From Pseudonocardiales bacterium (GTDB lineage Bacteria > Actinomycetota > Actinomycetes > Mycobacteriales > Jatrophihabitantaceae), in contig JAVEEO010000556.1 in the NCBI GenBank assembly GCA_030840415.1, positions 1 to 19,989 on the forward strand: a stretch of DNA of 19,989 bases, in the 5' to 3' direction. Under the pieces are notes generated by a model. The model was not told the DNA's origin. It saw only the letters and a program-made list of their open reading frames with translations, and searched no databases. Positions within the stretch are counted from its first letter, which is position 1. The number at the start of each line of letters is the position of its first letter. A program made the translations under genes and the position numbers. Of the stretch, positions 5,775 to 19,989 are shown piece after piece.

Positions 5775-6793
5775 TGGAGGCTTCCTTCGGTGACGCGCGG
5801 CGTACCGGCTTGCCGGGTGGGTCGGTGCGAGCGCTTGCGCGCCAGGTGCACCACCCACCAACCGGCTCCACGCAGTCCGCAGACGAGGGTGACGGAGAAG
5901 AACAGGGTGTAGACGACGTTGAAGGCCATCAGCACGCCGTAGACCATCGCGACCGCTGAGCCGAACATGAACTGGGGACGGGCCTTGCTCGGCGTGGTCC
6001 CGGGGTCGGAGATCATGTAGTTGGTGAACAGGATGAAGGCGATTCCGCTCATCACCGCCAGTGCCGAGTTCAGCGCCACGTCGTAGATCCAGTACCGCAG
6101 CACGGCCTGGATCACGAAGCCGCCGAGCCAGCCCAGCAGCAGCGGGATCTTGCGGGTCAGCGAGGCGTTGAGCACCGTGCCGGCCATCGCGATCACCAGC
6201 ACGATGCCGATCCGGTAGAAGGCATTGACGTTCTCGCTGAACTGGTACGGCGGCGCGATGCTGACGAACGAGCTGAACGCCACCAACGTCACGGTGATGC
6301 CGAAGTTCGAAGGGTTCATGAAGTGCCGCATGCGGCCGTTGATCGGTGCCTGCAACACGTTCTTGGCCGTGATGCCGACCACCACGCCGAACAGCACCGG
6401 CAGCAACTGGTTGTTGGCGTAGACGAGCATGTTGACCGCGAGCGCGGTGATGTGTGCCGGCAGCAGGAATTCATAGACCGAGCGTGGGTTGCGGGGATCG
6501 AAGCGCAGCGGCCGCTGCTGGGCCCAGCCACCCAGGAATTCGAAACCGATCTCGGTGGCATAGGCGGTCAGCACGCACAGGATCGGCCACAGCCAGGGCT
6601 GCTCGAAGCCGAGCAGGGTGTAGCCCAGCACGTTGAACACCGAGATCGACATCGCGAAGTTGCGCAGGGCGAGGTAGCGCGGGTCGGGCGGCACGGGTGC
6701 GCTGGCGACCGGACGGGCAACTGGTGCCGGGGCCTGCTGGACGGTGGCCGGGCCAGCGATCTCACTGCCGGGGGGAACGAGCGCCTTGGTCAT
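5771..6793 (-). CDS. unbU: Enediyne biosynthesis membrane protein UnbU (E5), RnfD/NqrB-like
   Basis: 340-aa polytopic membrane protein of the enediyne core cassette. A Pro/Ala-rich cytosolic N-terminus (1-40) precedes several hydrophobic segments (about 45-80, 112-150, 165-180, 193-210, 216-235, 243-262, 275-307), then a basic tail. The stretch around 249-285, with ISDPGTTPSK followed by a glycine-containing helix, resembles the end of RnfD/NqrB family proteins (family knowledge, from memory). I do not see an obvious covalent-flavin motif of the NqrB type. The ATG at 6793 overlaps the unbV stop (ATGA), and its own stop overlaps the GTG of pksE, so unbV-unbU-pksE reads as one coupled unit. The biochemical role of UnbU is not settled; a membrane redox function is inference from the fold. 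Confidence 0.93.
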   Translation of the reverse strand: MTKALVPPGSEIAGPATVQQAPAPVARPVASAPVPPDPRYLALRNFAMSISVFNVLGYTLLGFEQPWLWPILCVLTAYATEIGFEFLGGWAQQRPLRFDPRNPRSVYEFLLPAHITALAVNMLVYANNQLLPVLFGVVVGITAKNVLQAPINGRMRHFMNPSNFGITVTLVAFSSFVSIAPPYQFSENVNAFYRIGIVLVIAMAGTVLNASLTRKIPLLLGWLGGFVIQAVLRYWIYDVALNSALAVMSGIAFILFTNYMISDPGTTPSKARPQFMFGSAVAMVYGVLMAFNVVYTLFFSVTLVCGLRGAGWWVVHLARKRSHRPTRQAGTPRVTEGSLQ

Positions 6794-8793
6794 GAGCGGG
6801 TGATCTCCTTGATCGAGCTGCCGAGCAGCAGGGCGTGGCTGCCGGGTGCGAGTTGGGTGCGCTGGCTGTGCCAGGCACCGGACTGATCGCGCCAGCTGAG
6901 GTCGACGGTGACCGGACCGCTGGCGTCGCCGAGCCCGAAGTGGACGTCGAAGCTGACCTTGCCGCCGTGTCCGCCGCCGCCGTCGAGCTGCTGCAGCTGC
7001 GGTCCGGCGCTGGTGACGACCCGGGCGACGGCACCGTAGGCCGGGGACAGCCCGGTGGCGGCTGAGGATCCGCCGTCGGCGCCGGCTACCGGCTCTTCGG
7101 TGGTCGCCGGCCGGTACAGCTGCAGGTTGAGGTAGTTGCCGAGACGGGGCGAGGTGTTGCGGTAGAAGACCGGCAACGCCCACTGCCGCGCCACCGCGAA
7201 GTCGAGGGTGCCGGTGCCGGTGCTGTCGCCGATCGCGACTCCGCGGCTGGGAATCCGATCCGCCGTGGTACCGACCTGCTCGCTGATGTTGACGAACTTC
7301 GCCGAGGTCGACGAGCGGGCGTAGAGGGCGAAGGCATCGTGGCCGGAGACGTCGTCGCCGGGCTTGAAGTGCGGCCACATGGCCGGGTTGGCGATCAGGT
7401 CGTCGTTGCTGATCGCCAACTCCTGCAGCCAGTTCCACCGATCGATGGTGCCGCGCACGAAGCCGTCGCTCTGCAACACGTCCTGGTGGCCCTGGTTGAG
7501 CAGGTCAGCGGCCTTGACGTCCCAGGACCAGCCGGTCCAGGCCAGCCCATCCTGCTGGGCGCGCTGGCTGAACGGCGCCTGCCCGGACTCCATCGCCCGG
7601 CGCATCTCGGCGGCCGTGTCGGCGTCGTTGTGCCAGGCGAAGTTGCTCTCCTGCAGGCCCCAGGTGGCGGTGATGTTGCTGACCAGGAGGTCGAAGCGAC
7701 CCTGGTTGTCCAGGTCGGTGAAGTCCGCGCCCATCCCCTTGAACGAGTCGTGGCCGATCACGAAGGACTTCGGCGTGGTCGGGGTACGGCTTCCCACCAC
7801 CGCCCGGAACCGGATCTTGCCGGGGGTGGACAGGTTGTAGAGCAGGTGATCGCGGCCGAAGTCGTTGGCCACGTACACCTCGGGCTTGCCGTCGTCGGTG
7901 AGGTCGGCCGAGGTGATCGCCAGGGTCCAGCCACTGGCCACGGTGAGCGGGATCGCGCCGGGTTGTTCGAGGTAGCGCACCGAGGGCGTGCTCGACGTGC
8001 CGCCGTTGGCCGTCCACCGCAACACCCGGTCGCCGCCGCCATTGGTCGCGTGCGACAGGGTGTTGTCCATGACGAACTCGCCGCTGGACTGGGTGTCGAG
8101 GATCGCCACGTCGGGGAAGTAGTTGCCGACCACGATGTCGGGGTGGCCGTCACCGTCGAGGTCGGCGATCCCCACGGCGTTGGTGTTCCACCGCGCTCCG
8201 TGGTACTGGCCGTCGACGTTGGCGGTGGGGACGAGTTCCTGCGGCAGGTATGAGGCAAGCGACAGCGGCTGCCGGCTTTCCTTGGCCAGGAAGACGATCG
8301 GGGTCCGGCCCCAGTAGTAGACCAGCAGGTCCATCCGCCCGTCGCCGTTGTAGTCGCCCGGCACGCAGCCCATCGGGGCCATGTTCTCGTCCATCGGCAG
8401 CCCGTTGGGCCGCAGCAGGAACGGGGTGAACCGGTCGGCCGGGGGCGCGGTCGGGGTATAGGTGACCACCGCCTCGTTGGTGCGGGTGTCGGTGAAGCAC
8501 AGCGCGTCCGAGCGGCCGTGGCCGACCAGGTCGTTCATCGCGATGCTGGAACCGACGGCCGACAACCAGGCCCGGATGTGCTGATAGTCGGGGTTGACAG
8601 CCCGCTCGGTCCGGGTCGGTACCGCGTCGTAGCCGGGCGGCAGTGCGATCGGCAACTGCTGGAACCGGTAGGGGCTCGCGACCTGCGCGGCCGAGGCGGT
8701 CCGCACCGGCAGTTGGCCTACCACCAACAGCGTGCCGGCCAGTCCCAGCGCGCACAGCGCCGGCACCAGTCTGCGGAATCTGGTTCGTTGCAT
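6790..8793 (-). CDS. unbV: Enediyne biosynthesis protein UnbV (E4), exported FG-GAP/ASPIC protein
   Basis: 667-aa member of the enediyne cassette. It begins with a clear export signal: basic MQRTRFRR, a hydrophobic core at about 9-28, and a likely cleavage after TASA or TASAA (35/36). The body carries repeated Ca-binding-like FG-GAP/VCBS loops: DYNGDGRMD (147-155), DLDGDGHPD (211-219), DLTDDGKPE (297-305), DLDNQGRFD near 360, then weaker copies near 430 and 523. These suggest a beta-propeller. The C-terminus (about 585-640: YGAVARVV, GGGGHGG, HFGLGD) matches the ASPIC/UnbV domain. The ATG at 8793 has AAGGAG 7 nt upstream; the stop overlaps unbU. The export signal next to a membrane partner implies a step outside the cytosol or at the membrane, which is unusual for a polyketide pathway. 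Exact activity is unknown. Confidence 0.94.
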   Translation of the reverse strand: MQRTRFRRLVPALCALGLAGTLLVVGQLPVRTASAAQVASPYRFQQLPIALPPGYDAVPTRTERAVNPDYQHIRAWLSAVGSSIAMNDLVGHGRSDALCFTDTRTNEAVVTYTPTAPPADRFTPFLLRPNGLPMDENMAPMGCVPGDYNGDGRMDLLVYYWGRTPIVFLAKESRQPLSLASYLPQELVPTANVDGQYHGARWNTNAVGIADLDGDGHPDIVVGNYFPDVAILDTQSSGEFVMDNTLSHATNGGGDRVLRWTANGGTSSTPSVRYLEQPGAIPLTVASGWTLAITSADLTDDGKPEVYVANDFGRDHLLYNLSTPGKIRFRAVVGSRTPTTPKSFVIGHDSFKGMGADFTDLDNQGRFDLLVSNITATWGLQESNFAWHNDADTAAEMRRAMESGQAPFSQRAQQDGLAWTGWSWDVKAADLLNQGHQDVLQSDGFVRGTIDRWNWLQELAISNDDLIANPAMWPHFKPGDDVSGHDAFALYARSSTSAKFVNISEQVGTTADRIPSRGVAIGDSTGTGTLDFAVARQWALPVFYRNTSPRLGNYLNLQLYRPATTEEPVAGADGGSSAATGLSPAYGAVARVVTSAGPQLQQLDGGGGHGGKVSFDVHFGLGDASGPVTVDLSWRDQSGAWHSQRTQLAPGSHALLLGSSIKEITRS

Positions 8794-8847: not shown

Positions 8848-9684
8848 TCAGGCCTTGACGGCAAGTCCGCACCACATGGGCAGCGGGCGGGGACCGGTGT
8901 GCGCGGCGGGCGGCCGCCAGTCCGGCAGTTCCACAATTCCGGGGGTGACCAGCTGCAGCGGCTCGAGCAGCGCCTCGACTTGCGCCCGGGTGCGCCGGGT
9001 GATCGATTCGCCCCATTGCTGGTTGAGCTGCTCGAACGTCTCGTCCATCGCCTGGTCGCCGTCGGCGCGGGCGAAGTGCGAGACCGCGACGTAGGAGCCC
9101 GGGCACAGCGCGTCGTGGAGCTGCCGGGCCAGCTTGCCGGCGACGGCGTCGTCGTCGATGAAGTGCAGGATGCCGAACAGGACCAGGCCCACCGGCCGGT
9201 CGAAGTCCAGGTGCCGGCCCGCTTCGGCGAGGATCGCCGCCGGATCGTGCATGTCGTTGCCGAGGTACCAGACGTGCTGGGCGCCGCTGTCGGACAGAAG
9301 CTGGCGGGAGTAGTCGACGACCACCGGGTCGTTGTCCACGTAGACGACCTTGGCGGCCGGGTCCAGGGACTGGGCGGTCAGATGGACGTTGCCCATGGTG
9401 GGCAGCCCGGAGGCGATGTCGAGGAACTGCCCGACACCGGCCTCACTGACCAGGTAGGTCACGATCCGCTCGAGCGCTCGGCGGGCGCTGCCGATGTCCA
9501 GCCGCACGCCGTCGACCCCGCCGACCTCGCCCGGCCAGCCGGCGAAGGCGTGCTCGGCGACCTGCCGGTCGGCCTCGGTGTTGGCGGTTCCGCCGAGCAG
9601 ATAATCGAGCACTCGGGATACGTGCGGCATTTCCGGCTCCGAAGAATTTGACGGGGGCCCGGACACTTTCATAGATGACGACAT
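8848..9684 (-). CDS. SAM-dependent methyltransferase, DUF574 (Methyltransf_19) family
   Basis: 278-aa predicted SAM-dependent methyltransferase. The glycine-rich SAM loop is FLDIASGLPTMGN (about 87-99), followed by an acidic second-strand motif YVDNDP (115-120), both typical of the actinobacterial DUF574 family. In most members the first motif reads DIGTGIPT; here it is DIASGLPT. The N-terminal HVSRVLDYLLGG (21-32) is also characteristic. I chose the ATG at 9684 because GAGG lies 9 nt upstream; an in-frame extension to 9738 exists but has no convincing ribosome site. The gene follows the LLM oxidoreductase by 89 nt and precedes unbV by 54 nt on the same strand, so it is probably in the PKSE operon. 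Members are common in actinomycetes and many have no known substrate, so O- or N-methylation of the enediyne is only an inference. Confidence 0.88.
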   Translation of the reverse strand: MSSSMKVSGPPSNSSEPEMPHVSRVLDYLLGGTANTEADRQVAEHAFAGWPGEVGGVDGVRLDIGSARRALERIVTYLVSEAGVGQFLDIASGLPTMGNVHLTAQSLDPAAKVVYVDNDPVVVDYSRQLLSDSGAQHVWYLGNDMHDPAAILAEAGRHLDFDRPVGLVLFGILHFIDDDAVAGKLARQLHDALCPGSYVAVSHFARADGDQAMDETFEQLNQQWGESITRRTRAQVEALLEPLQLVTPGIVELPDWRPPAAHTGPRPLPMWCGLAVKA

Positions 9685-9720
9685 GGTGGAATACCTCACA
9701 TTGTTAGGGACTGAAACTAT

Positions 9721-9735
9721 CGGGCAATATGCCCG
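9721..9735. repeat. Perfect 6-bp inverted repeat upstream of the methyltransferase gene
   Basis: CGGGCA-ATA-TGCCCG lies in the 89-nt gap between the LLM gene and the methyltransferase gene. It could be an operator or a small RNA hairpin. Promoter boxes around it on the minus strand (TTGCAG, 17-nt spacer, TATTGC) are only weak matches. Confidence 0.5.
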
Positions 9736-9773
9736 CACTTGAGTTACTGCAAAACCGTTTCGTAAATCCCGGG

Positions 9774-10802
9774 TTATTGCATTGATGCACTAAACGATTC
9801 GATCGTTGACTGCAGGTTGAGGCGCAGTCGGGTGCCGTCGATCCCGATGTCGGACAGGTACAGGACCGGCTCCTCGTAGAGGTCGGCGAAGCCGGCTCGC
9901 CAGCGCTGCCGGGCCTCCTCCGGTGGGCCGTAGACGGTGAGGACGTCCAGCATCCGATCGGTCACGGCGCCGCGAGCGGCCTCGAGATCGCGACGCGCCA
10001 TCGCGGCGGCGATCGCCTGGGCCTCGGCCGTGAACCCGGCGTGCACCAACACCTGCCGGGTGGACTCGCGCATCGCGTAGACCGCGACCTGCAGCGCCAC
10101 GGTGCGCCGGGCGATAGCGGCGTCGTCGGACACGCAGGCCAGGATCAGACCGGTGATCGGCGGTGGGGCGGCGGCCGGATCGGGCCGCCGGCTGGCGCCC
10201 TCGGCCAGTAGCGGCCGCACCACCTCGTCGACATAGGCCCGCGAGGACAGCGGATTGCCGATCAGGCCGTCGGCAATCCGGCCGGCTGCCCGCAGCATCG
10301 GCGCCCGGCCGCCGGCCAGCAGGATGGGCAGTCGCGGCATCGCCTGCAACGACTCATCGCGCGCGATCCGACAGCGGAAGTGCCGGCCGTCGTGCTCGAC
10401 CGCCTGTTCGGACAGCCGCCACAGTTGCCGCAGCAACCCCACCAGCTCTACCAGCCGGCCGACCGGTTCATCGGTGCTCACGTCCAGCCAGTCGCGCAGT
10501 ATCTGCGGGTTGCCGGTCCCCAGCCCCAGCCGCACCCGGCCGGGCGCCAGCTCGCTGATGGAGCGCAACTCGGTGGCCAGCGCCAGCGGAGTGCGGGCGA
10601 AAGCCCAGGCGATGGAGCTGCCCAAGTTGATTTCCGCCGTCGTGCAGGCCGCTGCGGCAAGCGTGGTCAGGGCACTCCGGTTGCTGTATTCAGAGGTCCA
10701 TACCGACGGTAGTCCAGCACGTTCGGCCCACGCCGCAGCGTCCAGTGCGAGCGACATATCACCGCCCTGAACCGCGATGCCCGGCAGGTTTGTCTGCGTC
10801 AC
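9774..10802 (-). CDS. LLM-class F420-dependent oxidoreductase
   Basis: 342-aa luciferase-like TIM-barrel flavoprotein of the F420-dependent group (methylene-H4MPT reductase-like). The family is recognised from AERAGLPSVWTSEYS (about 27-41), the strand-helix unit ending in ELAPGRVRLGLGTGNP (about 84-99), and PRLPILLAGGRAPMLRAAGRIADG (a typical barrel strand and phosphate-binding loop). Such enzymes transfer hydride to or from an organic substrate using F420, or act as FMN monooxygenases; sequence alone does not separate the two here. The GTG start at 10802 has AGAGGG 5 nt upstream. It is the first gene of the minus-strand operon and is divergent from the AhpD-like gene across a 185-bp promoter region. 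Its position suggests a tailoring or core-reduction role, which is inference. Confidence 0.88.
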   Translation of the reverse strand: MTQTNLPGIAVQGGDMSLALDAAAWAERAGLPSVWTSEYSNRSALTTLAAAACTTAEINLGSSIAWAFARTPLALATELRSISELAPGRVRLGLGTGNPQILRDWLDVSTDEPVGRLVELVGLLRQLWRLSEQAVEHDGRHFRCRIARDESLQAMPRLPILLAGGRAPMLRAAGRIADGLIGNPLSSRAYVDEVVRPLLAEGASRRPDPAAAPPPITGLILACVSDDAAIARRTVALQVAVYAMRESTRQVLVHAGFTAEAQAIAAAMARRDLEAARGAVTDRMLDVLTVYGPPEEARQRWRAGFADLYEEPVLYLSDIGIDGTRLRLNLQSTIESFSASMQ

Positions 10803-10987
10803 TTAGCCCTCTGAAATGTTTGTCCGCGAAAGGCTGTGTGCCTTTTTCCGGCGTTTACGCTAGCTATGGCGTGGTAGCCAAATTTCTTCGTTATTGCCGC
10901 TTGAAGGCAAGCTGGAAGTAACTTGCTAGCAGTCACTTCGCAACGATCAACAGATCTTTCATCCAATTTCACCAGAAGGGTGGCGTT
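10803..10987. promoter_or_regulatory. Divergent promoter region between the two main operons
   Basis: A 185-bp AT-richer stretch separates the LLM oxidoreductase (minus) from the AhpD-like gene (plus), so it should hold both promoters. It contains two GCTAGC palindromes, at 10859-10864 and 10925-10930; the second extends to TGCTAGCA (10924-10931). Between them lies a short inverted repeat, GCTTG-AAGG-CAAGC (10899-10912). A GAAGGG ribosome site (10975-10980) precedes the GTG at 10988. I cannot identify convincing -35/-10 boxes on either strand, nor assign the palindromes to a regulator. Confidence 0.55.
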
Positions 10988-11593
10988 GTGAGCATCACGC
11001 CTGCCACGAGCTCCGTACGCGTTCCGATTACTCCTGAGGAGCAGGCCTCCGGCCCGCTGGCCGAGCAGTACGCCAGGATCAGGTCGGCCAGCGGATTGCC
11101 TTTTGTGCCCGACATGTTTGGAATGCTGTCGAGCCGGCCCGACCTGCTCGAGGCTGTCGTCTCGGGTTATTTGGGCGTGTTCAACGACGGCGCGCTCGAC
11201 CGCCATACCAAGGAACTCATCGCCAGTTGGACCTCCCAGGTCAACGGCTGCCCGTATTGCGTGGGAACCCACAACTATTTCCTGCAGCTGTTCGGCGGCA
11301 GCAGCGAACTCGCCGCGGCGATCCAGAGCGCCGGCTCGGAGGACGACCTGCCGGTGGACGAGCCGACCAAGGCCCTGCTGCGGCTGGTCAGCACCGTCTG
11401 CCGTTCGGCCTACAAGGTCACCGACTCGCTGTGGCAGCAGACATTGGACAGCGGCTGGAGCTCGGAGCAGCTGTTCGAGGCGGTGTTCACCACCGCGCTG
11501 TTCAACAGCATCACCCGGTTGGTCGACGGCTTGGGACTGGGCCAGAGCGTCGCGCAGAGCCGCACCTCGACGATGGAACCCAACGGTGGCTGA
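10988..11593 (+). CDS. AhpD/carboxymuconolactone-decarboxylase-like protein
   Basis: 201-aa all-helical protein of the CMD/AhpD peroxidase-related superfamily. It has the full redox signature E76-x11-C88-PY-C91-x3-H95, which in AhpD forms the peroxidatic/disulfide relay. An N-terminal portion (about 1-50) with FVPDMFGMLSSRPD is typical of the longer peroxidase-related subgroup. The GTG start at 10988 has GAAGGG 7 nt upstream. It opens the plus-strand operon and overlaps the SDR gene by 8 nt. Possible roles are peroxide or thiol handling during enediyne formation, or a dedicated oxidoreduction; neither is proven. Substrate is unknown. Confidence 0.87.
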   Translation: MSITPATSSVRVPITPEEQASGPLAEQYARIRSASGLPFVPDMFGMLSSRPDLLEAVVSGYLGVFNDGALDRHTKELIASWTSQVNGCPYCVGTHNYFLQLFGGSSELAAAIQSAGSEDDLPVDEPTKALLRLVSTVCRSAYKVTDSLWQQTLDSGWSSEQLFEAVFTTALFNSITRLVDGLGLGQSVAQSRTSTMEPNGG

Positions 11594-12506
11594 ACCCTGG
11601 CCGGGCAAGTCGCGGGCCGTGCTGATCACCGGCTGCGGCTCCTCCACCGGGCTCTCCTCGGGCACCGGCCAGCGAGCCGCCCGGATGCTGCACGAGCGCG
11701 GCTGGGACGTCTATGCCACCGGCCGCAGTCGGGAGGGTCTGGCGCCGCTGACCGAGGCCGGGCTGAACACCCGATTGCTCGACGTCACCGACGAATCGAG
11801 CATGCTGGAGACGGTGAGCGAGATCGAGGAGCGGCACGGCAGTGTCGGAGTGCTGGTCAACAATGCCGCCTACAGCCTCAACGGCACCTTCCTCGACACT
11901 CCCCTCAGCTCGGTGCGCCATCAGTTCGATACCAACCTGTTCGGGCTGGTCAAGCTCACCCAACTGGTGCTGCCGGGCATGATTGCCGCCCGCTCCGGCC
12001 GGATCGTGATGATGTCCTCGATCTTCGCCCTGTTCGCCACCGCCGGCCGCGGCTACTACGAGGCGACCAAGTACGCGCTGGAAGCGGTCAGCGACTCCCT
12101 GCGTCTGGAGGTCGACCATCTGGGCATCGATGTCGCGGTCATCGAGCCCTCGCCCATCCGCGGCGGCTTCGTACCCACCTCGGTGACCGACCTGGGCCTG
12201 GCCGAAGGCAGCGATCCCGAGCTGTACCAGGAGTTCTGGAAGTACTTCGTGGACTGGCACGGCGCCTACCGCGAGGTCGAGCATCCGCGTGGCCGGGGCC
12301 GGACGGCGATCACCGCCGACGGTGCCGCCCGGGTGCTGGTCAGGGCGGTGGAGGCTCCGACGCCCAGGATCCGCTACCGGATCGGGGTGCCGGTGCGGGT
12401 GCTCAGCCCGATGCGCAGCCTGATCGGCGAGCGGAACTGGGACCGGTTCGTCAGGGCGTTCTTCCCGACGCCGGCCAAGGCGTTGCGGGTGGCAGAGCGA
12501 CGATGA
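11586..12506 (+). CDS. Short-chain dehydrogenase/reductase (SDR), classical type
   Basis: 306-aa NAD(P)-dependent oxidoreductase. After strand AVLITG the nucleotide-binding loop reads TGCGSSTGLSSGTG (15-28), with a complete TGxxxGxG motif at 21-28 that appears preceded by an extra six-residue partial copy. Other SDR marks: VNNAA (91-95), catalytic Ser145 (MMSS), Tyr158 and Lys162 (YEATK). The C-terminus (about 200-306) is longer than in minimal SDRs and reads like the retinol-dehydrogenase-like group with a substrate lid. I place the start at GTG 11586, the only well-placed codon before the Rossmann strand. It has a poor ribosome site and overlaps the AhpD-like gene by 8 nt, so expression probably depends on coupling. 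The stop overlaps the GMC gene (ATGA). Confidence 0.88.
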   Translation: MAEPWPGKSRAVLITGCGSSTGLSSGTGQRAARMLHERGWDVYATGRSREGLAPLTEAGLNTRLLDVTDESSMLETVSEIEERHGSVGVLVNNAAYSLNGTFLDTPLSSVRHQFDTNLFGLVKLTQLVLPGMIAARSGRIVMMSSIFALFATAGRGYYEATKYALEAVSDSLRLEVDHLGIDVAVIEPSPIRGGFVPTSVTDLGLAEGSDPELYQEFWKYFVDWHGAYREVEHPRGRGRTAITADGAARVLVRAVEAPTPRIRYRIGVPVRVLSPMRSLIGERNWDRFVRAFFPTPAKALRVAERR

Positions 12507-14047
12507 GGATCGCGTTCGATTCGATCGTGGTCGGTGGAGGTAGTGCCGGAGCCATCGTGGCTGCCCGGCTGGCCACCGACCCGACACACCGCGTGCTGCT
12601 GATCGAAGCCGGCCCGCACTATCAGGCCGCCAAACTCCCGGCCGAGCTCGGCAATGCGAACGCGATGGCGCTCAGCTCGCACAGCTGGGGCATGACGGCC
12701 CGGCTTACCCGCAACCGGACGGTGCGCTTTCCCCAGGCAAAGGTGACCGGTGGCGGCTCGGCGGTCGGCAACACGGTGGCGATCCGTCCGCTGCCGGAGG
12801 ACCTGGACGAGTGGTGCAAGCTGGGAAACCCCGGCTGGTCCTGGGACGAGTGCCTGCCCATCCTGCGCGAGATGGAGGACGACCAGGACTTTGGCGGGCC
12901 GCTGCACGGACAGGGCGGCCGCACTCCGATCCGCCGGTTCAGCCGCGGCGAGCTTGCTCCGGTACAGGCCGCCTTCTACGACCAGTGCATGGAACTGGGT
13001 TACCCGGTCGCGGCCGACCACAACCATCCGGCCTCGACCGGCGTGGGACCGATGCCCACCCAGCGCAGCGGACCCGACGTGCGGTTCTCGACCGCGCTCG
13101 GCTATCTCGAACCGCTGCCGGACAACCTGACCATCTGGGCGCACACGCTGGTCAGCAAGGTGCTGCTGGATGCCGCCGGCATCGCGCACGGCGTGGAGAT
13201 CATCGCCGATGGCGAGCGGATGCGAGTGCCGGCCGGCCAGGTGGTGCTGTGCGCCGGCGCCATCATGACCCCGGCCATCCTGCAGCGGTCCGGGGTGGGT
13301 GATCCGGCCGAGGTGGACCAGGCCGGAGGCGTGCTGCGGATCGCCCTGCCGGCAGTGGGCAGGAACCTGCTCGATCAACCCCGGGTCGGGGTCTTCCTGG
13401 CCCCCAGCGAGGCCGCCGAGAACCTCGACACCTCCACCGGGCAGGTGGTGCTGCGCACCACCTCGGACAGCTACGGCGAGGCCAACGACCTCTACTACGC
13501 CATGGTCAGCCGGTTCGACCTGACACAGCACTTCCCGCGGCTGCGCCAGGACCAGCGAGCCGGCGGCGGCGTGGTGTACGGGGTGATGGCGGTCGCGCGC
13601 CGGCCGCACTCGCGCGGATCGGTGCGGGTGGTGTCGCCGGATCCGGACGTCCTTCCAGCGATCGATCTGGGCTACCTGTCCAACCCGCGGGACGTGAAGC
13701 TGTTGGTCGAATGCATCGCCGGTTGCTGGGATCTGGCTCGTACGCCGCGTATCGCGAGCCGGAGCTCGAGCGATCCGCTGCTGCTCGAGGCAGCCGACTT
13801 CGGCGGCCGCGGCACCGGCGTCCGACGCTACCTGCGGGCCACCGTGGACAGCGCGTACAACCCGGCCGGCACCGCGCGGATGGCACCGGCAGAGGCCGGC
13901 GGCGTGGTGGATCCGAACGGTCGGGTGCACGGAGCACAGGGTTTGTACGTCGCCGACGCCTCGGTGTTCCCCACCATGGTTCGCGCCAACATCAACCTGA
14001 CGGTGATGCTCGTCGCCGAGCGCATCTCCCGGTCACTGGTCGCCTGA
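12503..14047 (+). CDS. GMC-family FAD oxidoreductase with His-to-Asn change at the active site
   Basis: 514-aa glucose-methanol-choline family flavoprotein; members oxidise alcohols (and some ring-close or oxidise aldehydes) using FAD. Visible marks: FAD dinucleotide motif VVGGGSAG (9-16), ribityl-binding EAG (35-37), GMC signature 1 around 81-95 (VTGGGSAVGNTVAIRP), signature 2 at 252-266 (GAIMTPAILQRSGVG), and the C-terminal block LYVADASVFPTMVRANINLTVM (from 481). The usual catalytic His of the YHPxGTxRM motif is Asn453 here (AYNPAGTARM; codon AAC at 13859-13861). The second active-site position is the normal Asn497. Most of the fold is intact, so the protein is probably made and binds FAD but may not do ordinary alcohol oxidation. 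The start ATG overlaps the SDR stop by 4 nt. Substrate unknown. Confidence 0.92.
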   Translation: MRIAFDSIVVGGGSAGAIVAARLATDPTHRVLLIEAGPHYQAAKLPAELGNANAMALSSHSWGMTARLTRNRTVRFPQAKVTGGGSAVGNTVAIRPLPEDLDEWCKLGNPGWSWDECLPILREMEDDQDFGGPLHGQGGRTPIRRFSRGELAPVQAAFYDQCMELGYPVAADHNHPASTGVGPMPTQRSGPDVRFSTALGYLEPLPDNLTIWAHTLVSKVLLDAAGIAHGVEIIADGERMRVPAGQVVLCAGAIMTPAILQRSGVGDPAEVDQAGGVLRIALPAVGRNLLDQPRVGVFLAPSEAAENLDTSTGQVVLRTTSDSYGEANDLYYAMVSRFDLTQHFPRLRQDQRAGGGVVYGVMAVARRPHSRGSVRVVSPDPDVLPAIDLGYLSNPRDVKLLVECIAGCWDLARTPRIASRSSSDPLLLEAADFGGRGTGVRRYLRATVDSAYNPAGTARMAPAEAGGVVDPNGRVHGAQGLYVADASVFPTMVRANINLTVMLVAERISRSLVA

Positions 14048-14122
14048 CCCGGCGACCGCCCCCCTGCCGACCCGGATTCCCCGCGGTTGGTCCGCATCTT
14101 CCCTTTCGTATCAGGAGATTCC

Positions 14123-15937
14123 ATGGCTGGACAACGCTATGACGTCGCCGTCCTCGGTTCCGGAATCGGCGGTTCGATGCTCGCCTGCATCCTGGCCAAG
14201 CGCGGCCTGACCGTCGTGCTGGTCGAGGGCGCCACCCATCCGCGCTTCGCGATCGGCGAGTCGCTCATTCCCGAAACGGGCGTGCGGCTGCGCATCATCG
14301 CCGAGAAGTACGGCATTCCCGAGATCGGCTGGCTGGCCACCTTCCAGACGCTGCGCGACCGGATCAGCCCGGCCTGCGGGGTCAAGCGGTCCTTCAGCTT
14401 CCTGCACCATGACCGGGGCGCCCGGCACCAACCGGGCCACGTCAACCAACTGCCCACCCTGACGCCACCGGTAGGACCGGATTCCCACCTGTTCCGGCAG
14501 GACACCGACGCGTACTTCGCCGGGGTCGCGGTGCGCTACGGCGCCCGGCTGGTGACCGGAGCGCCGGTGACCGCGGTGAAGCTGAACCGGCACGGCGTGA
14601 CCCTGACCACCGCCACCCACGGCGACTTCGAGGCGGAGTTCCTCATCGACGCCTCGGGGATGAAGTCACTGGTGTCCGACCAGCTGGGCCTGCGCGATCC
14701 CGAGCCACGGTTTCGGACCAACACCCGGGCCATCTACACCCACATGGTCGGCGTGCCGCCGGCCGACGCGCTGCTGACCACGAAGGGGCGCAAGCAGCTG
14801 GCCTCGCCGCTGGGCCAGGCCACCATGCACCACGTCTTCGACGGCGGTTGGATCTGGGTGATCCCGTTCGGCAACCACCGTTACGCGACCAACCAGCTCA
14901 CCAGCGTCGGCATGCTGCTGGACCGGCGCAAGTACCCGGACCCGACCGGTGCGCCCGCGGATGAGTTCCGGGCGGTGGCAAGCCAGTTCCCCAGCATCGC
15001 ACAGCATTTCGCCAACGCCTCGGCGGTCCGGCCCTGGGTGGGAACCGGCCGGCTGCAGTACTCCTCGTCCCGGATGGTGGCTGACCGGATGATCCAGCTG
15101 CCGCACGCCGCCGCCTTCCTCGACCCGCTCTACTCCAGCGGAATGTCGGTGCTCACGGTGGCCGTCGATCAGATCGCCGGCCGGTTGTTGACGGCGTTCG
15201 AGGACCGCCGGTTCGGCCGGGAGAACTTCGTGCCGGTGGAGAGCTTCGTCAACCGCGCCTTCGACCACTACGACCTGGTGGTGTCGCACTCCTTCGACGC
15301 CTTCGCGCACTGGGAATTGTGGAATGCCTGGAACCGCAACTGGGCGATCGGCAACATGCTCGGCACCTTCGGCAGCCTGTCGGTGCTGATGCGCTACCTG
15401 GCCAGCCGGGATCCCGCGATCCTGGAGGAGTCGGTCGATCCGCTGCATGCCGGGGTGCTGGGCAGCCAGTTGCCGGAGGTGGTCGAGTTGATGAGGCGCT
15501 CGGCCGAGCACATCGCCGAGGCCGCCGCCGGCCGCGCCTCGCCAGCGGCGGCCGGTGCCGAGATCTTCCGGTTGATCGGAGCGGCCGACTTCCTGCCGCC
15601 CTACCTGCGCTTCGGCGATCCGGACGGCGGGGTGCCCACCTTCACCCTGCAGGCCGGCGCGCGCCACGTCACCTGGTACCGCACCCAGGCGCCGGAGCAG
15701 TGGCGCCGGCACTGCGACTTCCCGCTGAGCACCTACTCCTGGCACGCGCTCGGCTACCTGGCCGGCACCGCCGGCCAGGTAGCCGGCCGGTTGTTCGGCG
15801 ACAGCCGGGACGTGGTGCGGGCGCGCAACCACGAGCTTCCCGTCGGGCCGGACACCTGGCAGCCCGACCTGTCGGCGCTGGCCACCGCGCCGCTGACCAC
15901 CGGCGAGCTGCCGGTCGACGTCGCGAGTGCTCGCTAG
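14123..15937 (+). CDS. Flavin-dependent halogenase
   Basis: 604-aa FADH2-dependent halogenase-type flavoprotein. Motifs: GSGIGG dinucleotide fold (12-17); PRFAIGES (40-47); a Lys in GVKRSF (Lys88), at the place of the HOX-relay lysine of phenol/pyrrole halogenases; WIWVIP (243-248), the WxWxIP hallmark that separates halogenases from monooxygenases; and FLDPLYSSG (332-340), the second halogenase signature. About 200 further residues follow the core, including an Ala-rich helical stretch near 475-500, more than in many phenolic halogenases. ATG 14123 has AGGAG 5 nt upstream; the gene lies 75 nt after the GMC gene. It needs a flavin reductase, which is not in the window. It may chlorinate or iodinate a peripheral aromatic group, or halogenate a core intermediate; both are inference. 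Confidence 0.9.
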   Translation: MAGQRYDVAVLGSGIGGSMLACILAKRGLTVVLVEGATHPRFAIGESLIPETGVRLRIIAEKYGIPEIGWLATFQTLRDRISPACGVKRSFSFLHHDRGARHQPGHVNQLPTLTPPVGPDSHLFRQDTDAYFAGVAVRYGARLVTGAPVTAVKLNRHGVTLTTATHGDFEAEFLIDASGMKSLVSDQLGLRDPEPRFRTNTRAIYTHMVGVPPADALLTTKGRKQLASPLGQATMHHVFDGGWIWVIPFGNHRYATNQLTSVGMLLDRRKYPDPTGAPADEFRAVASQFPSIAQHFANASAVRPWVGTGRLQYSSSRMVADRMIQLPHAAAFLDPLYSSGMSVLTVAVDQIAGRLLTAFEDRRFGRENFVPVESFVNRAFDHYDLVVSHSFDAFAHWELWNAWNRNWAIGNMLGTFGSLSVLMRYLASRDPAILEESVDPLHAGVLGSQLPEVVELMRRSAEHIAEAAAGRASPAAAGAEIFRLIGAADFLPPYLRFGDPDGGVPTFTLQAGARHVTWYRTQAPEQWRRHCDFPLSTYSWHALGYLAGTAGQVAGRLFGDSRDVVRARNHELPVGPDTWQPDLSALATAPLTTGELPVDVASAR

Positions 15938-16026
15938 CCCGGCGCCGCCCTCCCTCCAGGCGGAGCAGCCCAGATCAGCCAAATCGACTCGACCGATTAT
16001 TCTCGGACGGCTCGAACGTAGGTACT

Positions 16027-16107
16027 GGAGGAACAGTGCTTCGGGCTGCCAGCTGGCTGCTCCGATGCATTCCGACACCATCACCGCACAGATTGGACCG
16101 AACATGA
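16027..16107 (+). CDS. Putative 23-codon leader ORF coupled to the SgcJ-like gene
   Basis: A small open frame starts with GTG at 16036, with a strong GGAGG ribosome site at 16027-16031 (4-nt spacer). It encodes 23 residues containing ASWLLRC and a Pro/His/Arg-rich tail. Its stop (TGA, 16105-16107) overlaps the SgcJ-like ATG as ATGA. The SgcJ-like gene itself has no good ribosome site, so ribosomes finishing the leader would be well placed to start it. Whether the peptide matters or only its translation does cannot be told. Confidence 0.5.
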   Translation, partial: GGTVLRAASWLLRCIPTPSPHRLDRT

Positions 16108-16499
16108 CCAGCACCACCGACACTGCGACCGCCGGCGTCAAGGACACCCTGAACAGCCTCTACCAGGCCTGGGCCGACAACGACGGCGACGCCTTCGCCC
16201 AGCTCTACACCGAGGACGCGACGGTGGTCCTGCCCGGCAACTTCCACCAGGGCAAGGACTCCATTGCCCGGTACATGGGCATGGGATTCTCCGGACCGCT
16301 CAAGGGTTCGCGGGGCGTCGACGAGCCGCAGTCCATCCGGATCATCGGCGACACCGCCATCGTGGTGAGCAAGGCAGGCATCCTGATGGCCGGCGAGGAC
16401 TCGCTGCCGTCCGAGCGGGAGCGCTACGCCACCTGGGTGCTGACCCGTCAGGACGACCGCTGGTTGGTGGCCGCCTACTCCAACAGCCCGGCGCACTAG
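16104..16499 (+). CDS. sgcJ: SgcJ/EcaC-family NTF2-fold (SnoaL-like) enediyne protein
   Basis: 131-aa small cone-shaped-fold protein of the SgcJ/EcaC group; SgcJ belongs to the C-1027 enediyne cluster. Family marks: first helix with LYQAWADNDGDAFAQLY (about 19-35), TEDATVVLPGN (37-47), then GKDSIARYM (50-58), and strands with RYATWVLTRQDDRWLVAAYSN (from 107) that end the NTF2 fold. Length is typical. The ATG at 16104 has a weak ribosome site and overlaps the stop of the leader ORF; an in-frame ATG at 16065 would add 13 residues but also lacks a ribosome site. The precise reaction of SgcJ-type proteins is unclear; binding or cyclising an enediyne intermediate is inference. Confidence 0.85.
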   Translation: MTSTTDTATAGVKDTLNSLYQAWADNDGDAFAQLYTEDATVVLPGNFHQGKDSIARYMGMGFSGPLKGSRGVDEPQSIRIIGDTAIVVSKAGILMAGEDSLPSERERYATWVLTRQDDRWLVAAYSNSPAH

Positions 16500-16511
16500 C
16501 AACTGGCCGGC

Positions 16512-16567
16512 AGTACGAAGAGCACAGTACGTAGAGCACAGCACGTAGAGCACAGCACGGGCAGCAC
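16512..16567. repeat. Four tandem 14-bp units
   Basis: Four adjacent units start at 16512, 16526, 16540 and 16554: AGTACGAAGAGCAC, AGTACGTAGAGCAC, AGCACGTAGAGCAC, AGCACGGGCAGCAC. Neighbouring units differ at one to three bases. The last unit is also the 5' arm of the terminator hairpin. There are no spacers, so this is not a CRISPR array. Confidence 0.85.
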
Positions 16568-16605
16568 AGCGAGCGAACGCCGCTGTGCTGCCCGGGTGCT
16601 TTCGG
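16554..16605 (+). terminator. Strong hairpin terminator between convergent genes
   Basis: GGGCAGCACAGC (16559-16570) pairs perfectly with GCTGTGCTGCCC (16582-16593) around an 11-nt loop. After a small bulge, AGCAC (16554-16558) pairs with GTGCT (16596-16600). A short TTTC-type tail follows on the plus strand. It sits 55 nt after the SgcJ-like stop and 59 nt from the sigma-factor stop, so it may stop transcription from both sides. Confidence 0.75.
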
Positions 16606-16658
16606 TGGTGGGTGAGCAGCGACCGGCAGAGCGGGCCCGTCCGGTCGGAGCCGGAGGA

Positions 16659-17630
16659 TCAACCGGCCGGCAGCACCGGCGCCAGGTCGAAGCCGGCCAG
16701 TACCCGCGGGTCGGCGAACACGTCGTTGCGCCGGACCCGGCCCGCTGAGATCTCCAGGACCTGCAGGGTGTGCAGCCGGTACTCCGTCGCCGAGGCGCGG
16801 CAGTAGGCGGCGAAGGCCGGCTGCCCGTTGGCCTGCGTCGCCACGGTGCGCCAGGACGTGCCGCGCTCGTCGAACACCCGCGACAGGAATGCCCGGTAAT
16901 TCGGCACTCCGAGGTACCACAAATTCACCGGCGGCATTTCCAACAGCACGTCGTCGGTCAGCAACTTGACGATGCCGTCGACGTCCCCGTGTTCGAAGGC
17001 GTGCATGTAGTTCTCGATGGGACCGAGGTCGGAATTGGCGTCGGCGAGGCTTTCGTCGACAATCGATAATTGTCCGAGCCGCTCCCGCGCACGCTGTAGG
17101 GCGCTATTCGCCGCCGCCACAGTTGTCTGCAACATTGCGGCCGTTTCCTCGGCGCTGAATGCGAGCACGTCGCGCAGGATCAGAACCGCCCGCTGCCGGG
17201 CCGGAATAGTCTGAAAAGCCGCGATCAACGCAAGCCGCAGGCTGCTGCGCGCCACTGCCACGTCGGCCGGGTCGGCGGCTGAGCCGCCGGTCGGGAACGG
17301 CTCCAGCCACGGGATCTCCCAGGACGGCGCCAACGGTGCCAGGGCATCCTCCGATGCCGGGCCCAGGCCGACCGGAAGCGGCCTGCGCGGCCGGCCACGT
17401 AGGGTGTCAAGGCAGAGATTGGTGGCGATCCGGTACAACCAGGTCCGCCGGGAGGCCCGGCGCTCGTCGAAGCCCTCCCGCCCCCGCCAGGCGCGCAGCA
17501 GGCATTCCTGGGCCAGGTCCTCGGCCTCGAAGTAGCTGCCCACCATCCGGTAGCAGTGGGCCACCAGTTCGGCACGGTGCTGGGCGAGTCCGAGTTCCAT
17601 CTCGCGTTCTGCGGTCACGACGATTCCCAT
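16659..17630 (-). CDS. ECF sigma factor with C-terminal SnoaL-like domain
   Basis: 323-aa RNA polymerase sigma factor. Sigma region 2 spans about 16-80 (AHCYRMVGSYFEAEDLAQE, then RRTWLYRIATNLCLDTLRGR). Region 4 spans about 130-187 (PARQRAVLILRDVLAFSAEE, AAANSALQRARERL). A third domain, about 205-315, is an NTF2/SnoaL-like fold, as in the SigJ/SigG-like and TIGR02960 groups, where it modulates activity in place of an anti-sigma factor; no anti-sigma gene is adjacent. I chose ATG 17630; it has only a weak GAAG site, and ATG 17600 or TTG 17654 are alternatives. Leu188 is encoded by TTA (17067-17069), rare in high-GC actinomycetes and a possible bldA checkpoint. It is divergent from the monooxygenase-unbL operon, a likely place for it to act. 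Confidence 0.9.
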   Translation of the reverse strand: MGIVVTAEREMELGLAQHRAELVAHCYRMVGSYFEAEDLAQECLLRAWRGREGFDERRASRRTWLYRIATNLCLDTLRGRPRRPLPVGLGPASEDALAPLAPSWEIPWLEPFPTGGSAADPADVAVARSSLRLALIAAFQTIPARQRAVLILRDVLAFSAEETAAMLQTTVAAANSALQRARERLGQLSIVDESLADANSDLGPIENYMHAFEHGDVDGIVKLLTDDVLLEMPPVNLWYLGVPNYRAFLSRVFDERGTSWRTVATQANGQPAFAAYCRASATEYRLHTLQVLEISAGRVRRNDVFADPRVLAGFDLAPVLPAG

Positions 17631-17762
17631 CACTTCACTGGTGCGAAAAGGCAATGCACAAGAAATTCATCCCAGGATATCAAACTACGTTTCAAGCGTT
17701 ATCGGCCCGTCTTTGGAAACCACTCCGACAGGGCCCCACCCGCCACCTCATTCCGGAGCGTG
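17631..17762. promoter_or_regulatory. Divergent promoter region, sigma factor / flavin monooxygenase
   Basis: A 132-bp AT-richer gap between divergently read genes. It must contain a promoter for the sigma factor and probably one for the monooxygenase-unbL pair. CGGAG (17754-17758) is the ribosome site for ATG 17763. I see no clear inverted repeat or confident -35/-10 pair. Confidence 0.5.
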
Positions 17763-18956
17763 ATGAACAGCAATCCGGCCCCGCTCACCCTCGATATTGC
17801 CACCAGCGATCCTGAAACGAAATTATGGCTCGATAAAGTCGACGGCATTTCCGAGGTACTCGAGAAATTCAGCGGCGAAAACGAGCGGAATCGGGACACC
17901 GATCCGGCCGTGACGGCCGAATTGGTCCGTACCGGCATCTCCCGGATGTGCGTCGGGCGCAGGTTCGGTGGCAGCCAGGTGAGCATCGCCACGGCGATGC
18001 GGGTCATCGAGGCGATCGCCCGGATCGATCCGGCGGTGGCCTGGCAGGTCGGCGTGCAGGCGGCCATCGGCCGGTTGTCGGACTTCCTTCCCGAGGACAG
18101 CGCCAACACCGTCTTTCGCGACCAGGACGGCACCGTGATGGGCGGGGTGACCCCGTCCGGCCGGGCCGAGCGGGTACCGGGCGGCTACCTGGTCAACGGG
18201 GAGTGGGCGTTCGGGTCCGGCGGGTCGATGGCCAACTGGATGCTGTGCACCACGATGGTGACCTCGGGCGGCGAGCCGGTGATGGACGGCGTTCGCCCGG
18301 TGATGTGCGCCGCCCTGGTGCCGACCGCCTCCATCAGCTTCCGCGACACCTGGCACACCCTGGGACTGCGTGGGTCGGGCAGCAACCACTACCGGGTGGC
18401 CGACGTCTTCGTCGCCGAGGAGATGACCGTCTCACGGGCCACCCTGGTCCGCCCGCCGGCCCGGCCGGACGCTGCCTACCCGCTCAGCTACTTCGACTTC
18501 GGGCCGTTCGCCGAGTCCCCGCAGGCGTTGGGCATCGCAGCCGCCGCACTGGCCGCCTTCCGGGAACTCGCCGAGCGCAAGCGGCCGACCAGCGGCACCA
18601 CCACGCTGGCCACCTCGCACGTGGTGCAGGACCGCTACGCCCGCGCCGAGATGGCGGTCCACACCGGCCGGCTGCTGCTGGACGAGGCGGCCCGCCAGGC
18701 GATGGTGCGCCCGCCCGGTGACAGCCTGAGCGCGCTGGTCCGGATGAGCGCCGCGTCGATGGGCGAATCCGCGGTCTTCGCCGTCAACACGGTGTTCGCG
18801 CTCGCCGGCACCTCCGGCATCTACGAGACCAGCCCGCTGGAACGGGCCTTCCGCGACATCCACACGGCAACCAAGCACATCGCGATGGCCGCCAGCCATT
18901 TCGAGATGGCCGGCTCGGCGATGCTGACCGGCGGCCCGCTGGCGATGCGGCGCTGA
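17763..18956 (+). CDS. Acyl-CoA-dehydrogenase-fold (group D) flavin monooxygenase
   Basis: 397-aa protein with the acyl-CoA dehydrogenase fold. N-terminal helical part, about 1-120; beta domain with GGYLVNGEWAFGSGG (140-154); GLRGSGSNHYRVADVFV (201-217); and a C-terminal helical bundle ending in a FRDIHTATKHIAM block, as in the type-2 C-terminal family of FMNH2-dependent hydroxylases and N-oxygenases (HsaA-like). I see no obvious catalytic Glu of true acyl-CoA dehydrogenases, and a secondary-metabolite setting favours a monooxygenase. It would need a separate flavin reductase, not in this window. ATG 17763 has CGGAG 4 nt upstream. Leu21 is a TTA codon (17823-17825). unbL follows after 96 nt on the same strand. 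Substrate unknown; hydroxylation of the core or an aromatic group is inference. Confidence 0.85.
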   Translation: MNSNPAPLTLDIATSDPETKLWLDKVDGISEVLEKFSGENERNRDTDPAVTAELVRTGISRMCVGRRFGGSQVSIATAMRVIEAIARIDPAVAWQVGVQAAIGRLSDFLPEDSANTVFRDQDGTVMGGVTPSGRAERVPGGYLVNGEWAFGSGGSMANWMLCTTMVTSGGEPVMDGVRPVMCAALVPTASISFRDTWHTLGLRGSGSNHYRVADVFVAEEMTVSRATLVRPPARPDAAYPLSYFDFGPFAESPQALGIAAAALAAFRELAERKRPTSGTTTLATSHVVQDRYARAEMAVHTGRLLLDEAARQAMVRPPGDSLSALVRMSAASMGESAVFAVNTVFALAGTSGIYETSPLERAFRDIHTATKHIAMAASHFEMAGSAMLTGGPLAMRR

Positions 18957-19052
18957 CGACCCGCCCCGCCGGCCCGCCCTTGGCGCCGGCACGGCCACCC
19001 AGCGCGGCCGCCGGGCCGCCCCTTCTCGGTGTACCCCCGACAGGAGCTCCAC

Positions 19053-19989
19053 GTGTTCCATACCCTGCTCAACCTGCGCAGCTCGGTGCTGACGCCGAAC
19101 CGGCGCGAGACCACCTTCGCCTTCCGCGGGTTCCAGCCGCGCGACGAGCGCGCCCGCACCGTTCTGGAGTCGGCCGGCAACGGCTTCCTGGACGGTTTCG
19201 CGATGGCGGCCGGCACGCCGAGCGCCGCCGCCGCGGCCGCCCGGCTGCAGTACCTGCCGGCTGCCACCCGCGGCTTCGGTTACGAGGGCGCCGCCATGGC
19301 GCTGGCGATGCTGGAGGTCGGCCGGCCGCGCTCGGGCGAGCTGCGCCGGTTCCTCACCGAGTTGGCCGGCTCGCACGTCTACCTGGCCTACGTGGGCGTC
19401 GGCTGGGCGCTGGCACGGCTGCCCCGTCCGCTGTGGCGGCGGCCGGTGGCGGCGCTGGCCGATCCGGTGCTCGACTGGCTGGTACTGGACGGCTACGGCT
19501 TCCACGAGGCGTACTTCGACACCGGGCGGACGGTGGGAGCCCATCGCCGCCCGGCCGGGCTGAGCTGGCAGGGCCACACCGGTGACGGCCCGGTGCAGTC
19601 GGTGTTCGACCAGGGGGTCGGCCGCGCGCTGTGGTTCGTCTGCGGCGCCGACCCGCGCCAACTGGCCTCCACCCTGGACGGCTTCGACCGGCGGCGGCGC
19701 CCGGACCTGGTCGCGGGCCTCGGCCTGGCGGCCACCTACGCCGGCGGCGCGGACGCCGAGGTGCTGGCCACGGTGCGCGAGATCGCCGGCGAGCACGCCG
19801 CGCAACTGGCCCAGGGCGCGGTCTTCGCGGCCGAGACCCGGGCCCGGTCCGGCGCCGTCAACCCGCACACCGAGGCCGCCTGCCAGGCGCTGGCCGGCAT
19901 CTCGGTGGCCGAGGCGGTCGACCTGGCCACCACCACCCGGCCCACCGAGGCGACCACCGACGGCGAGGTGTCCTACCAGGTGTGGCGGG
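19053..19989 (+). CDS. unbL: Enediyne biosynthesis protein UnbL (E3, DUF1702), 3' end cut
   Basis: 312 codons are visible before the window ends, close to the full length expected for this family. It is recognised as the DUF1702/UnbL protein of the enediyne core cassette from FRGFQPRDERAR (about 24-35), FLDGFAMAAG (about 46-55), RGFGYEGAAMALAML (about 73-87), HVYLAYVGVGWALARLP (about 109-125) and DGYGFHEAYFD (about 148-158). It is Ala/Gly-rich with no obvious signal or membrane segment. The GTG start at 19053 has AGGAG 6 nt upstream. It is required in the conserved cassette, but its reaction is not known to me. It lies on the opposite strand from unbV, unbU and pksE, about 10 kb away, in an operon headed by the group-D monooxygenase. 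Confidence 0.93.
   Translation, partial: MFHTLLNLRSSVLTPNRRETTFAFRGFQPRDERARTVLESAGNGFLDGFAMAAGTPSAAAAAARLQYLPAATRGFGYEGAAMALAMLEVGRPRSGELRRFLTELAGSHVYLAYVGVGWALARLPRPLWRRPVAALADPVLDWLVLDGYGFHEAYFDTGRTVGAHRRPAGLSWQGHTGDGPVQSVFDQGVGRALWFVCGADPRQLASTLDGFDRRRRPDLVAGLGLAATYAGGADAEVLATVREIAGEHAAQLAQGAVFAAETRARSGAVNPHTEAACQALAGISVAEAVDLATTTRPTEATTDGEVSYQVWR

Follow-up and report, generated by a model that had tools for sequence, protein, structure and literature searches.

A flavin-dependent halogenase that appears to be inherited with an enediyne polyketide synthase cassette

Contig JAVEEO010000556.1 of a Pseudonocardiales bacterium (GCA_030840415.1), analysed here over its full 19,989 nucleotides and called the window below, encodes a halogenase (HAL) within a run of genes for AhpD-like, short-chain dehydrogenase (SDR), GMC oxidoreductase, HAL and SgcJ-like proteins, on a contig that also encodes an enediyne polyketide synthase (PKSE), raising the question of what this halogenase acts on. 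The original prediction treated the five genes as one dedicated oxidative and halogenating module and held halogenation of a core-derived intermediate to be as plausible as decoration of a side group. Our analysis points to HAL as a free-substrate halogenase inherited with the PKSE cassette and probably acting on a PKSE-derived intermediate. The window is the entire contig C410 (19,989 bp) of the metagenome-assembled genome (MAG; 4.14 Mb, 569 contigs, 86% complete) of an uncultured bacterium, so both of its ends are assembly cuts.

As predicted from its sequence and modelled fold, HAL is a flavin-dependent halogenase of the CtcP/PltM type, the class that acts on free substrates. The closest solved structures were the tetracycline 7-halogenase CtcP (363 bits; PDB 7xgb, 7v0b) and the phenol halogenase PltM (325 bits; PDB 6bza), whereas PltA, Mpy16 and ChlB4 gave only 75–82 bits. 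The structure model (predicted local distance difference test score, pLDDT, 88) showed template-modelling (TM) scores by target length of 0.92–0.95 to CtcP and PltM (CtcP 0.93–0.95), compared to 0.73–0.79 for the carrier-tethered class (PltA 0.76–0.79). Comparison with PltA, Mpy16, ChlB4 and CndH placed HAL outside the PltA/CndH-like carrier-tethered class, and the analogy that had been drawn with the C-1027 halogenase SgcC3 was not sustained for this reason. HAL contains GSGIGG at residues 12–17 and WIWVIP at residues 243–248, which we take to be the FAD-binding GxGxxG and the WxWxIP motifs of halogenases; W243, W245, I247 and P248 are invariant across 36 sequences, as is Lys88, which aligns with the catalytic Lys87 of PltM (numbering by hand). 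In the available text of PMC6424973, the K87A variant of PltM gave no halogenated product, and PltM is described as using chloride, bromide and iodide. HAL shares 36–41% identity with CtcP, which belongs to a tetracycline pathway whereas HAL lies beside an enediyne polyketide synthase (PKS), and HAL residues 504–569, outside the part matched to CtcP, hold conserved positions. CtcP is described as acting on an advanced polyketide core (PMC8407142, available text). HAL also differs from PltM, a phloroglucinol halogenase, in having Asn411 where PltM has Ser404 (hand-counted numbering). FAD monooxygenase families matched HAL weakly, and its halogenating activity is a prediction, as would suit a halogenase-fold flavin monooxygenase or hydroxylase that adds no halogen; the best matches being halogenases, and the conservation of Lys88 and WxWxIP, make this improbable.

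The enediyne setting claimed for the window was borne out by the presence on the same contig of the PKSE together with its cassette companions UnbU, UnbV and DUF1702. The acyltransferase domain of the PKSE matched that of DynE8 with 192 bits, and PKSE homologs carry the name enediyne polyketide synthase; the window PKSE, whose C-terminus, where a PPTase would lie, is cut, has no PF00550 match to show an internal ACP, as is the case for many of the 119 listed homologs. Compared with the E3/E4/E5/E/E10 and DynE7/E8/T3/U14/U15 cassettes, PKSE, UnbU, UnbV and DUF1702 are common, but no E10-type thioesterase was seen within the window, where the contig ends. The available text of PMC5181780 names five genes as common to all enediynes, and from our own reading of what these encode a halogenase is not among them. 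The SgcJ-like protein scored 93 bits against TIGR02246 (cut-off 34), and its best two PDB matches, 4i4k and 4ovm, are both named SgcJ (~100 bits each); homologs also occur in the clusters of genomes G347, G1062 and G830. SgcJ itself belongs to the nine-membered enediyne cluster of C-1027, according to the available text of PMC8488855.

Analysis of the loci that encode HAL relatives revealed a close association with the PKSE. GTDB contigs were scanned with an alignment of 23 listed HAL homologs, and the best 80 of at least 465 loci were used. Two of these 80 encoded halogenases at least 48% identical to HAL, one from Catenulispora pinistramenti (L010, 60%) and one from Deltaproteobacteria HyVt-553 (L011, 48%), and in both a PKSE lay within 2 kb of the halogenase. 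In contrast, none of the 78 more distant loci had a best-scoring PKSE piece that reached 40% identity (range 25–39% where present), a negative for adjacency that is weaker because some of these loci are short. Genome searches with HAL alone added two relatives, G347 from the MAG's own genus and G1062 from genus g8, which is probably Streptomyces (in the halogenase tree, the G1062 protein clusters with named Streptomyces sequences). All four context-bearing relatives of at least 48% identity thus adjoin an enediyne PKS and, with the window included, PKSE adjacency was 5/5 versus 0/78 (Fisher p 3e-8). In G347 and G1062, HAL lies on the cassette strand immediately ahead of UnbV-UnbU-PKSE, and in Catenulispora it comes before the PKSE. 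The deltaproteobacterial locus runs DUF1702-UnbV-UnbU-PKSE-thioesterase-HAL, its HAL gene beginning 2 nt past a thioesterase of the 4HBT type. A plasmid search gave no closer relative (49 records, all below 60% identity). Among the listings of our literature searches, no report linked such a halogenase with a PKSE, and none appears in the available parts of PMC4785625, PMC12871659, PMC7256010, PMC10951976 and PMC11857848.

Phylogenetic comparison suggested a shared history of HAL and the cassette. In a tree of 122 halogenases built by a quick method, the five PKSE-linked halogenases and the 24 homologs included, out of 119 listed, formed one clade (Shimodaira-Hasegawa-like approximate likelihood-ratio test, SH-aLRT, 99), with the deltaproteobacterial halogenase basal. 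HAL, PKSE, UnbV and DUF1702 gave an identical five-taxon topology in IQ-TREE, with ultrafast bootstrap values of 98–100 on inner branches, and HAL and PKSE distances over the five loci correlated with r = 0.98; for five taxa a topology matches by chance once in 15 per gene, and neither the genes nor the distances are independent, so these matching trees are support for joint descent, not proof of it. The HAL subfamily nevertheless appears to have been inherited with the enediyne PKS cassette.

A different reading is that HAL decorates a peripheral aromatic or amino acid-derived unit whose genes lie past the contig ends, the window being cut on both sides. Like HAL, the halogenases SgcC3 (C-1027), MdpC3 (maduropeptin) and CalO3 (calicheamicin), with which HAL was compared by description only, belong to enediyne clusters, and CalO3 is held to decorate a peripheral unit. 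In the available texts, SgcC3 acts on β-tyrosine, probably tethered (PMC8407142), MdpC3 has a tyrosine-derived unit as its substrate (PMC10951976), and the solved enzymes nearest to HAL take phenolic or aromatic substrates (PMC6424973). In addition, five halogenase homologs of 40–44% identity (L019, L024, L056, L066 and L089) lie less than 10 kb from PKSs that are 32–33% identical to the window PKSE over ~900 aa and may be aryl-acid synthases.

A search for the pathway that side-group decoration would need turned up none among the ORFs scanned. As originally noted, no aryl-polyketide genes are in view within the window. No orsellinate- or naphthoate-type PKS, aminomutase or chorismate enzyme was present among the identified open reading frames (ORFs) of the inner 80 kb of G1062. 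No further ORF in that genome matched the window PKSE from ~64 kb upstream to ~50 kb past its PKSE, and the next PKS, ~51 kb past, is modular and lies next to genes for a thioesterase, a desaturase and a methyltransferase. Aryl-acid-type PKSs were likewise absent from the ORFs scanned in L011 and L010 and from the ketosynthase (KS) contigs of the MAG that were scanned. Of the six KS matches in the MAG, one is the PKSE, three are nonribosomal peptide synthetase (NRPS)/PKS pieces carried by C524, C525 and C441, and the other two are a further KS on C441 and a short one on C274. The scan covered the C524 and C525 proteins and one C441 protein, which as NRPS/PKS-type pieces were rejected as aryl-acid synthases. 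The absence of an aryl pathway from the MAG is weak evidence because the MAG is incomplete. Given that no such pathway was recognised around G1062, L011 or L010 or on the MAG contigs scanned, and that all four context-bearing relatives keep HAL beside the cassette, we consider side-group decoration unlikely. A PKSE-derived substrate is better supported because of the PKSE adjacency, the single clade, the shared trees and the lack of a recognised aryl-acid pathway, and the core-derived substrate, rated at first as one of two equal options, is now the stronger of the two, with HAL beside a PKSE in four of four relatives of at least 48% identity.

Several observations weigh against HAL acting on a PKSE-derived intermediate. 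The PltM and CtcP substrates that are known are phenolic or aromatic, not polyenes. The number of loci behind co-inheritance is small (n = 5), and further support for it is indirect, being drawn from equal contig size: among the matches listed (119 of 1328 for HAL, the window protein aside, and, out of 4541 for PKSE, the 118 listed with a contig size), at least six HAL homologs share an exact contig size with a PKSE homolog (61276, 205173, 558044, 187745, 18475 and 10194), the first three pairs also sharing the organism (Streptomyces NPDC051104, S. sviceus and NPDC050485, respectively), and one more listed HAL homolog matches, by eye, the contig size of a listed UnbV homolog (5256). In G1062, identification covered 30 of the 60 ORFs called in the inner 80 kb (10 that match window genes and 20 more through Pfam), and an A-PCP-TE protein lies ~17 kb from the PKSE. 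HAL and UnbV are separated by ~140 nt in G1062, and in the window HAL lies outside the cassette operon. This placement in different operons is also what would be expected if HAL were part of another pathway and near the PKSE by chance, which we regard as very improbable given that the same clade stands beside a PKSE in four further genomes, including a deltaproteobacterium, with matching trees.

The distribution of HAL among cassettes weighs on the same side. DUF1702 was detected at E 1e-20 or better in 23 of 246 g8 genomes, 21 of which showed UnbV and PKSE in the stretches fetched (exceptions, G861 and G691), yet the HAL subfamily occurred in none of the 23; four carry halogenase relatives at 28–44% identity, none on the DUF1702 contig. 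Among the nine loci of the window's PKSE clade, four have HAL and five lack it (G759, G791, G829, G919 and a second G347 PKSE locus), and clustering of HAL-positive loci on the PKSE tree, where the window PKSE sits on a long branch, was not beyond chance (120 of 500 label shuffles were as low). This patchy pattern fits repeated loss or gain. HAL is therefore not needed for every core and is a feature of some enediyne pathways, not all; its status as a universal cassette gene is ruled out by the 23 DUF1702 genomes. The subfamily is also rare, with one of 392 g8 genomes giving a match at E 1e-140 and two of 397 genomes of the order, one of them the window's, exceeding 50% identity.

Side observations on additional cassettes include the second PKSE locus of G347 (G347:C5; L202, L203), which has tandem DUF1702 genes and, over the 40 kb read, lacks a halogenase; the genome also has a HAL-positive PKSE locus. 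In the MAG itself, a second, truncated DUF1702 gene at the end of contig C134 (G000:C134, L201; 3392–3705) may represent a second cassette or a second DUF1702 copy.

Flavin-dependent halogenases use FADH2 to form a flavin hydroperoxide, which oxidises halide to hypohalous acid (HOX), and a lysine relays HOX to the substrate. For the PKSE-linked HAL subfamily, we infer a scheme in which the PKSE, UnbU, UnbV, DUF1702 and a thioesterase would make a polyene-derived intermediate, a separate reductase would supply FADH2, and HAL would form the flavin hydroperoxide and oxidise halide to HOX, which the conserved Lys88 would hand to the substrate. This substrate would most likely derive from the PKSE product, as either a polyene or polyyne en route to the core or an aromatic from the same PKSE; the halogen and the timing are likewise part of the proposal. 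AhpD, SDR and GMC, probably a separable redox tailoring set within this pathway, may tune the oxidation state together with the other flavoproteins. The SgcJ-like protein may aid core maturation as in C-1027.

A narrower version, possible but on balance doubtful, is that this subfamily is the dedicated core halogenase of one enediyne branch and places iodine (or bromine or chlorine) onto a PKSE-derived polyene or polyyne; if true, these pathways would reach by a flavin-dependent route a halogenated intermediate that is formed in other clusters with no enzyme of this sort. Gui et al. (2024) reportedly described a diiodotetrayne intermediate in enediyne biosynthesis, and the cassettes that give iodoanthracene or diiodotetrayne are not known to include a flavin halogenase of the HAL kind. 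Both compounds are precedents for halogenated PKSE-derived intermediates; in the available text of PMC9464397, iodoanthracene arises from the DynE7/E8/T3/U14/U15 cassette and iodine is essential for anthraquinone-fused enediynes. The flavin halogenase JamD can brominate alkynes, according to the available text of PMC12645471. Enediyne core making and halogen entry into PKSE-derived intermediates are still largely an open field. A halogenase lineage that accompanies the cassette provides a specific enzyme for assays with PKSE products and marks clusters that might give halogenated cores or intermediates.

The proposal that the five genes form one dedicated halogenating module did not hold. The AhpD-SDR pair recurs in G347, G1062, G791, G829 and G919 (AhpD 57–62% and SDR 60–63% identity), and in the last three it occurs with GMC nearby but without this halogenase. 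In both G347 and G1062, a GMC homolog of 49–50% identity stands next to the S-adenosylmethionine (SAM) methyltransferase; homologs of 43–45% identity form a second copy there and are also found in G791, G829 and G919. In G347, where the gene set is divided between contigs C6 and C33, and in G1062, HAL stands before the cassette, apart from AhpD-SDR-SgcJ. Neither G347, G1062, L010 and L011 nor the stretches read from the 23 DUF1702 genomes (mostly 40 kb) showed the order AhpD-SDR-GMC-HAL-SgcJ. Among the relatives read, no characterised cluster had the same operon, although no curated cluster database was searched. A conserved five-gene operon was ruled out by its absence from all relatives read. 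Because AhpD-SDR, GMC, SgcJ-like and HAL genes are arranged otherwise in G1062 and G347, the window order appears to be a local rearrangement of genes that both also carry, setting HAL apart from AhpD-SDR-GMC so that each can be tested alone. G1062 and G347 also hold a styrene-monooxygenase-like flavoprotein, an asparagine-synthase-like protein and transporters. In G1062 the PKSE is followed directly by genes for a flavin reductase and for a carotenoid-oxygenase-like protein of the RPE65 family. The RPE65-like family is common to PKSE loci of the window's clade, having been found by Pfam in G1062 and Catenulispora C19 and by clustering in G759, G791, G829 and G919.

The positions reported for the five genes, their 4–8-nt overlaps and the short spacing of the HAL and SgcJ-like genes were confirmed when the ORF positions were re-read (Table 1). 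An ORF starting at 11103 is a longer reading in the SDR gene's own frame. Third-position GC is 0.87–0.95 in all five genes between 10988 and 16499, like that of coding genes. No promoter- or terminator-like sites were found in 10700–16700 (0 and 0, versus 0.4 and 1.8 expected), so a single transcript of the five genes is possible, as a prediction only. On the minus strand, 4-nt overlaps join UnbV to UnbU and UnbU to PKSE, and the genes for the SAM methyltransferase and the luciferase-like (LLM) oxidoreductase lie upstream of these three, the latter separated by 185 bp from the divergent AhpD gene. The gene for a sigma factor with a C-terminal SnoaL domain, a possible local regulator, sits between the SgcJ-like and acyl-CoA-dehydrogenase-like genes and has homologs in the stretches of G830 and Catenulispora C600.

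Table 1. Genes of the 19,989-bp window.
Feature	Coordinates	Strand	Remarks
PKSE (enediyne PKS)	3..5774	-	KS-AT-KR-DH; 3' end cut by contig end
UnbU (cassette), 340 aa	5771..6793	-	61–64% identity to G1062, G347, Catenulispora; 40% to L011
UnbV (cassette)	6790..8793	-	FG-GAP/ASPIC; homologs named UnbV or enediyne biosynthesis protein E4
SAM methyltransferase	8848..9738	-	PF04672; homologs in G1062 and G347 clusters, 49–51%
Luciferase-like (LLM) oxidoreductase	9774..10802	-	PF00296; divergent from AhpD
AhpD-like (carboxymuconolactone decarboxylase family)	10988..11593	+	GTG start; PF02627 E 1e-9
SDR	11586..12506	+	GTG start; PF00106; 8-nt overlap with AhpD
GMC oxidoreductase	12503..14047	+	ATG start; PF00732/PF05199; 4-nt overlap with SDR
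Halogenase (HAL), 604 aa	14123..15937	+	ATG start; PF04820; 75-nt gap after GMC
SgcJ-like NTF2-fold protein, 131 aa	16104..16499	+	ATG start; TIGR02246; 166-nt gap after HAL
Extracytoplasmic function (ECF) sigma factor with SnoaL domain (SigX5/TIGR02960)	16659..17654	-	Start uncertain
Acyl-CoA dehydrogenase/HsaA-like flavoprotein	17760..18956	+	PF08028; NF045629 under its cut-off; start uncertain
DUF1702 cassette protein	19029..19989	+	PF08012 356 bits; cut by contig end

Finally, other halogenase-like proteins were encountered during the searches. A MAG protein on C421 first taken for a halogenase was rejected as one; it sits beside a LodA-like oxidase and is probably a LodB-like maturase. 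Sister-clade halogenases (40–46% identity) from Acidobacteriota MAGs adjoin DUF1702 and share their locus with a PKS (L012, L014 and L017), with the PKS order AT-KS-KR-DH in L012 and L017 and weak UnbV-like matches nearby in L014 and L017, possibly reflecting a different polyene-type pathway that likewise pairs DUF1702 with a halogenase. Another sister-clade halogenase, from Enhygromyxa salina SWB007 (L016, 10001–11731), shares its locus with a large PKS. This strain makes salimabromide, which has a brominated benzene ring according to the available text of PMC6163206, making the enzyme a candidate halogenase for that compound.

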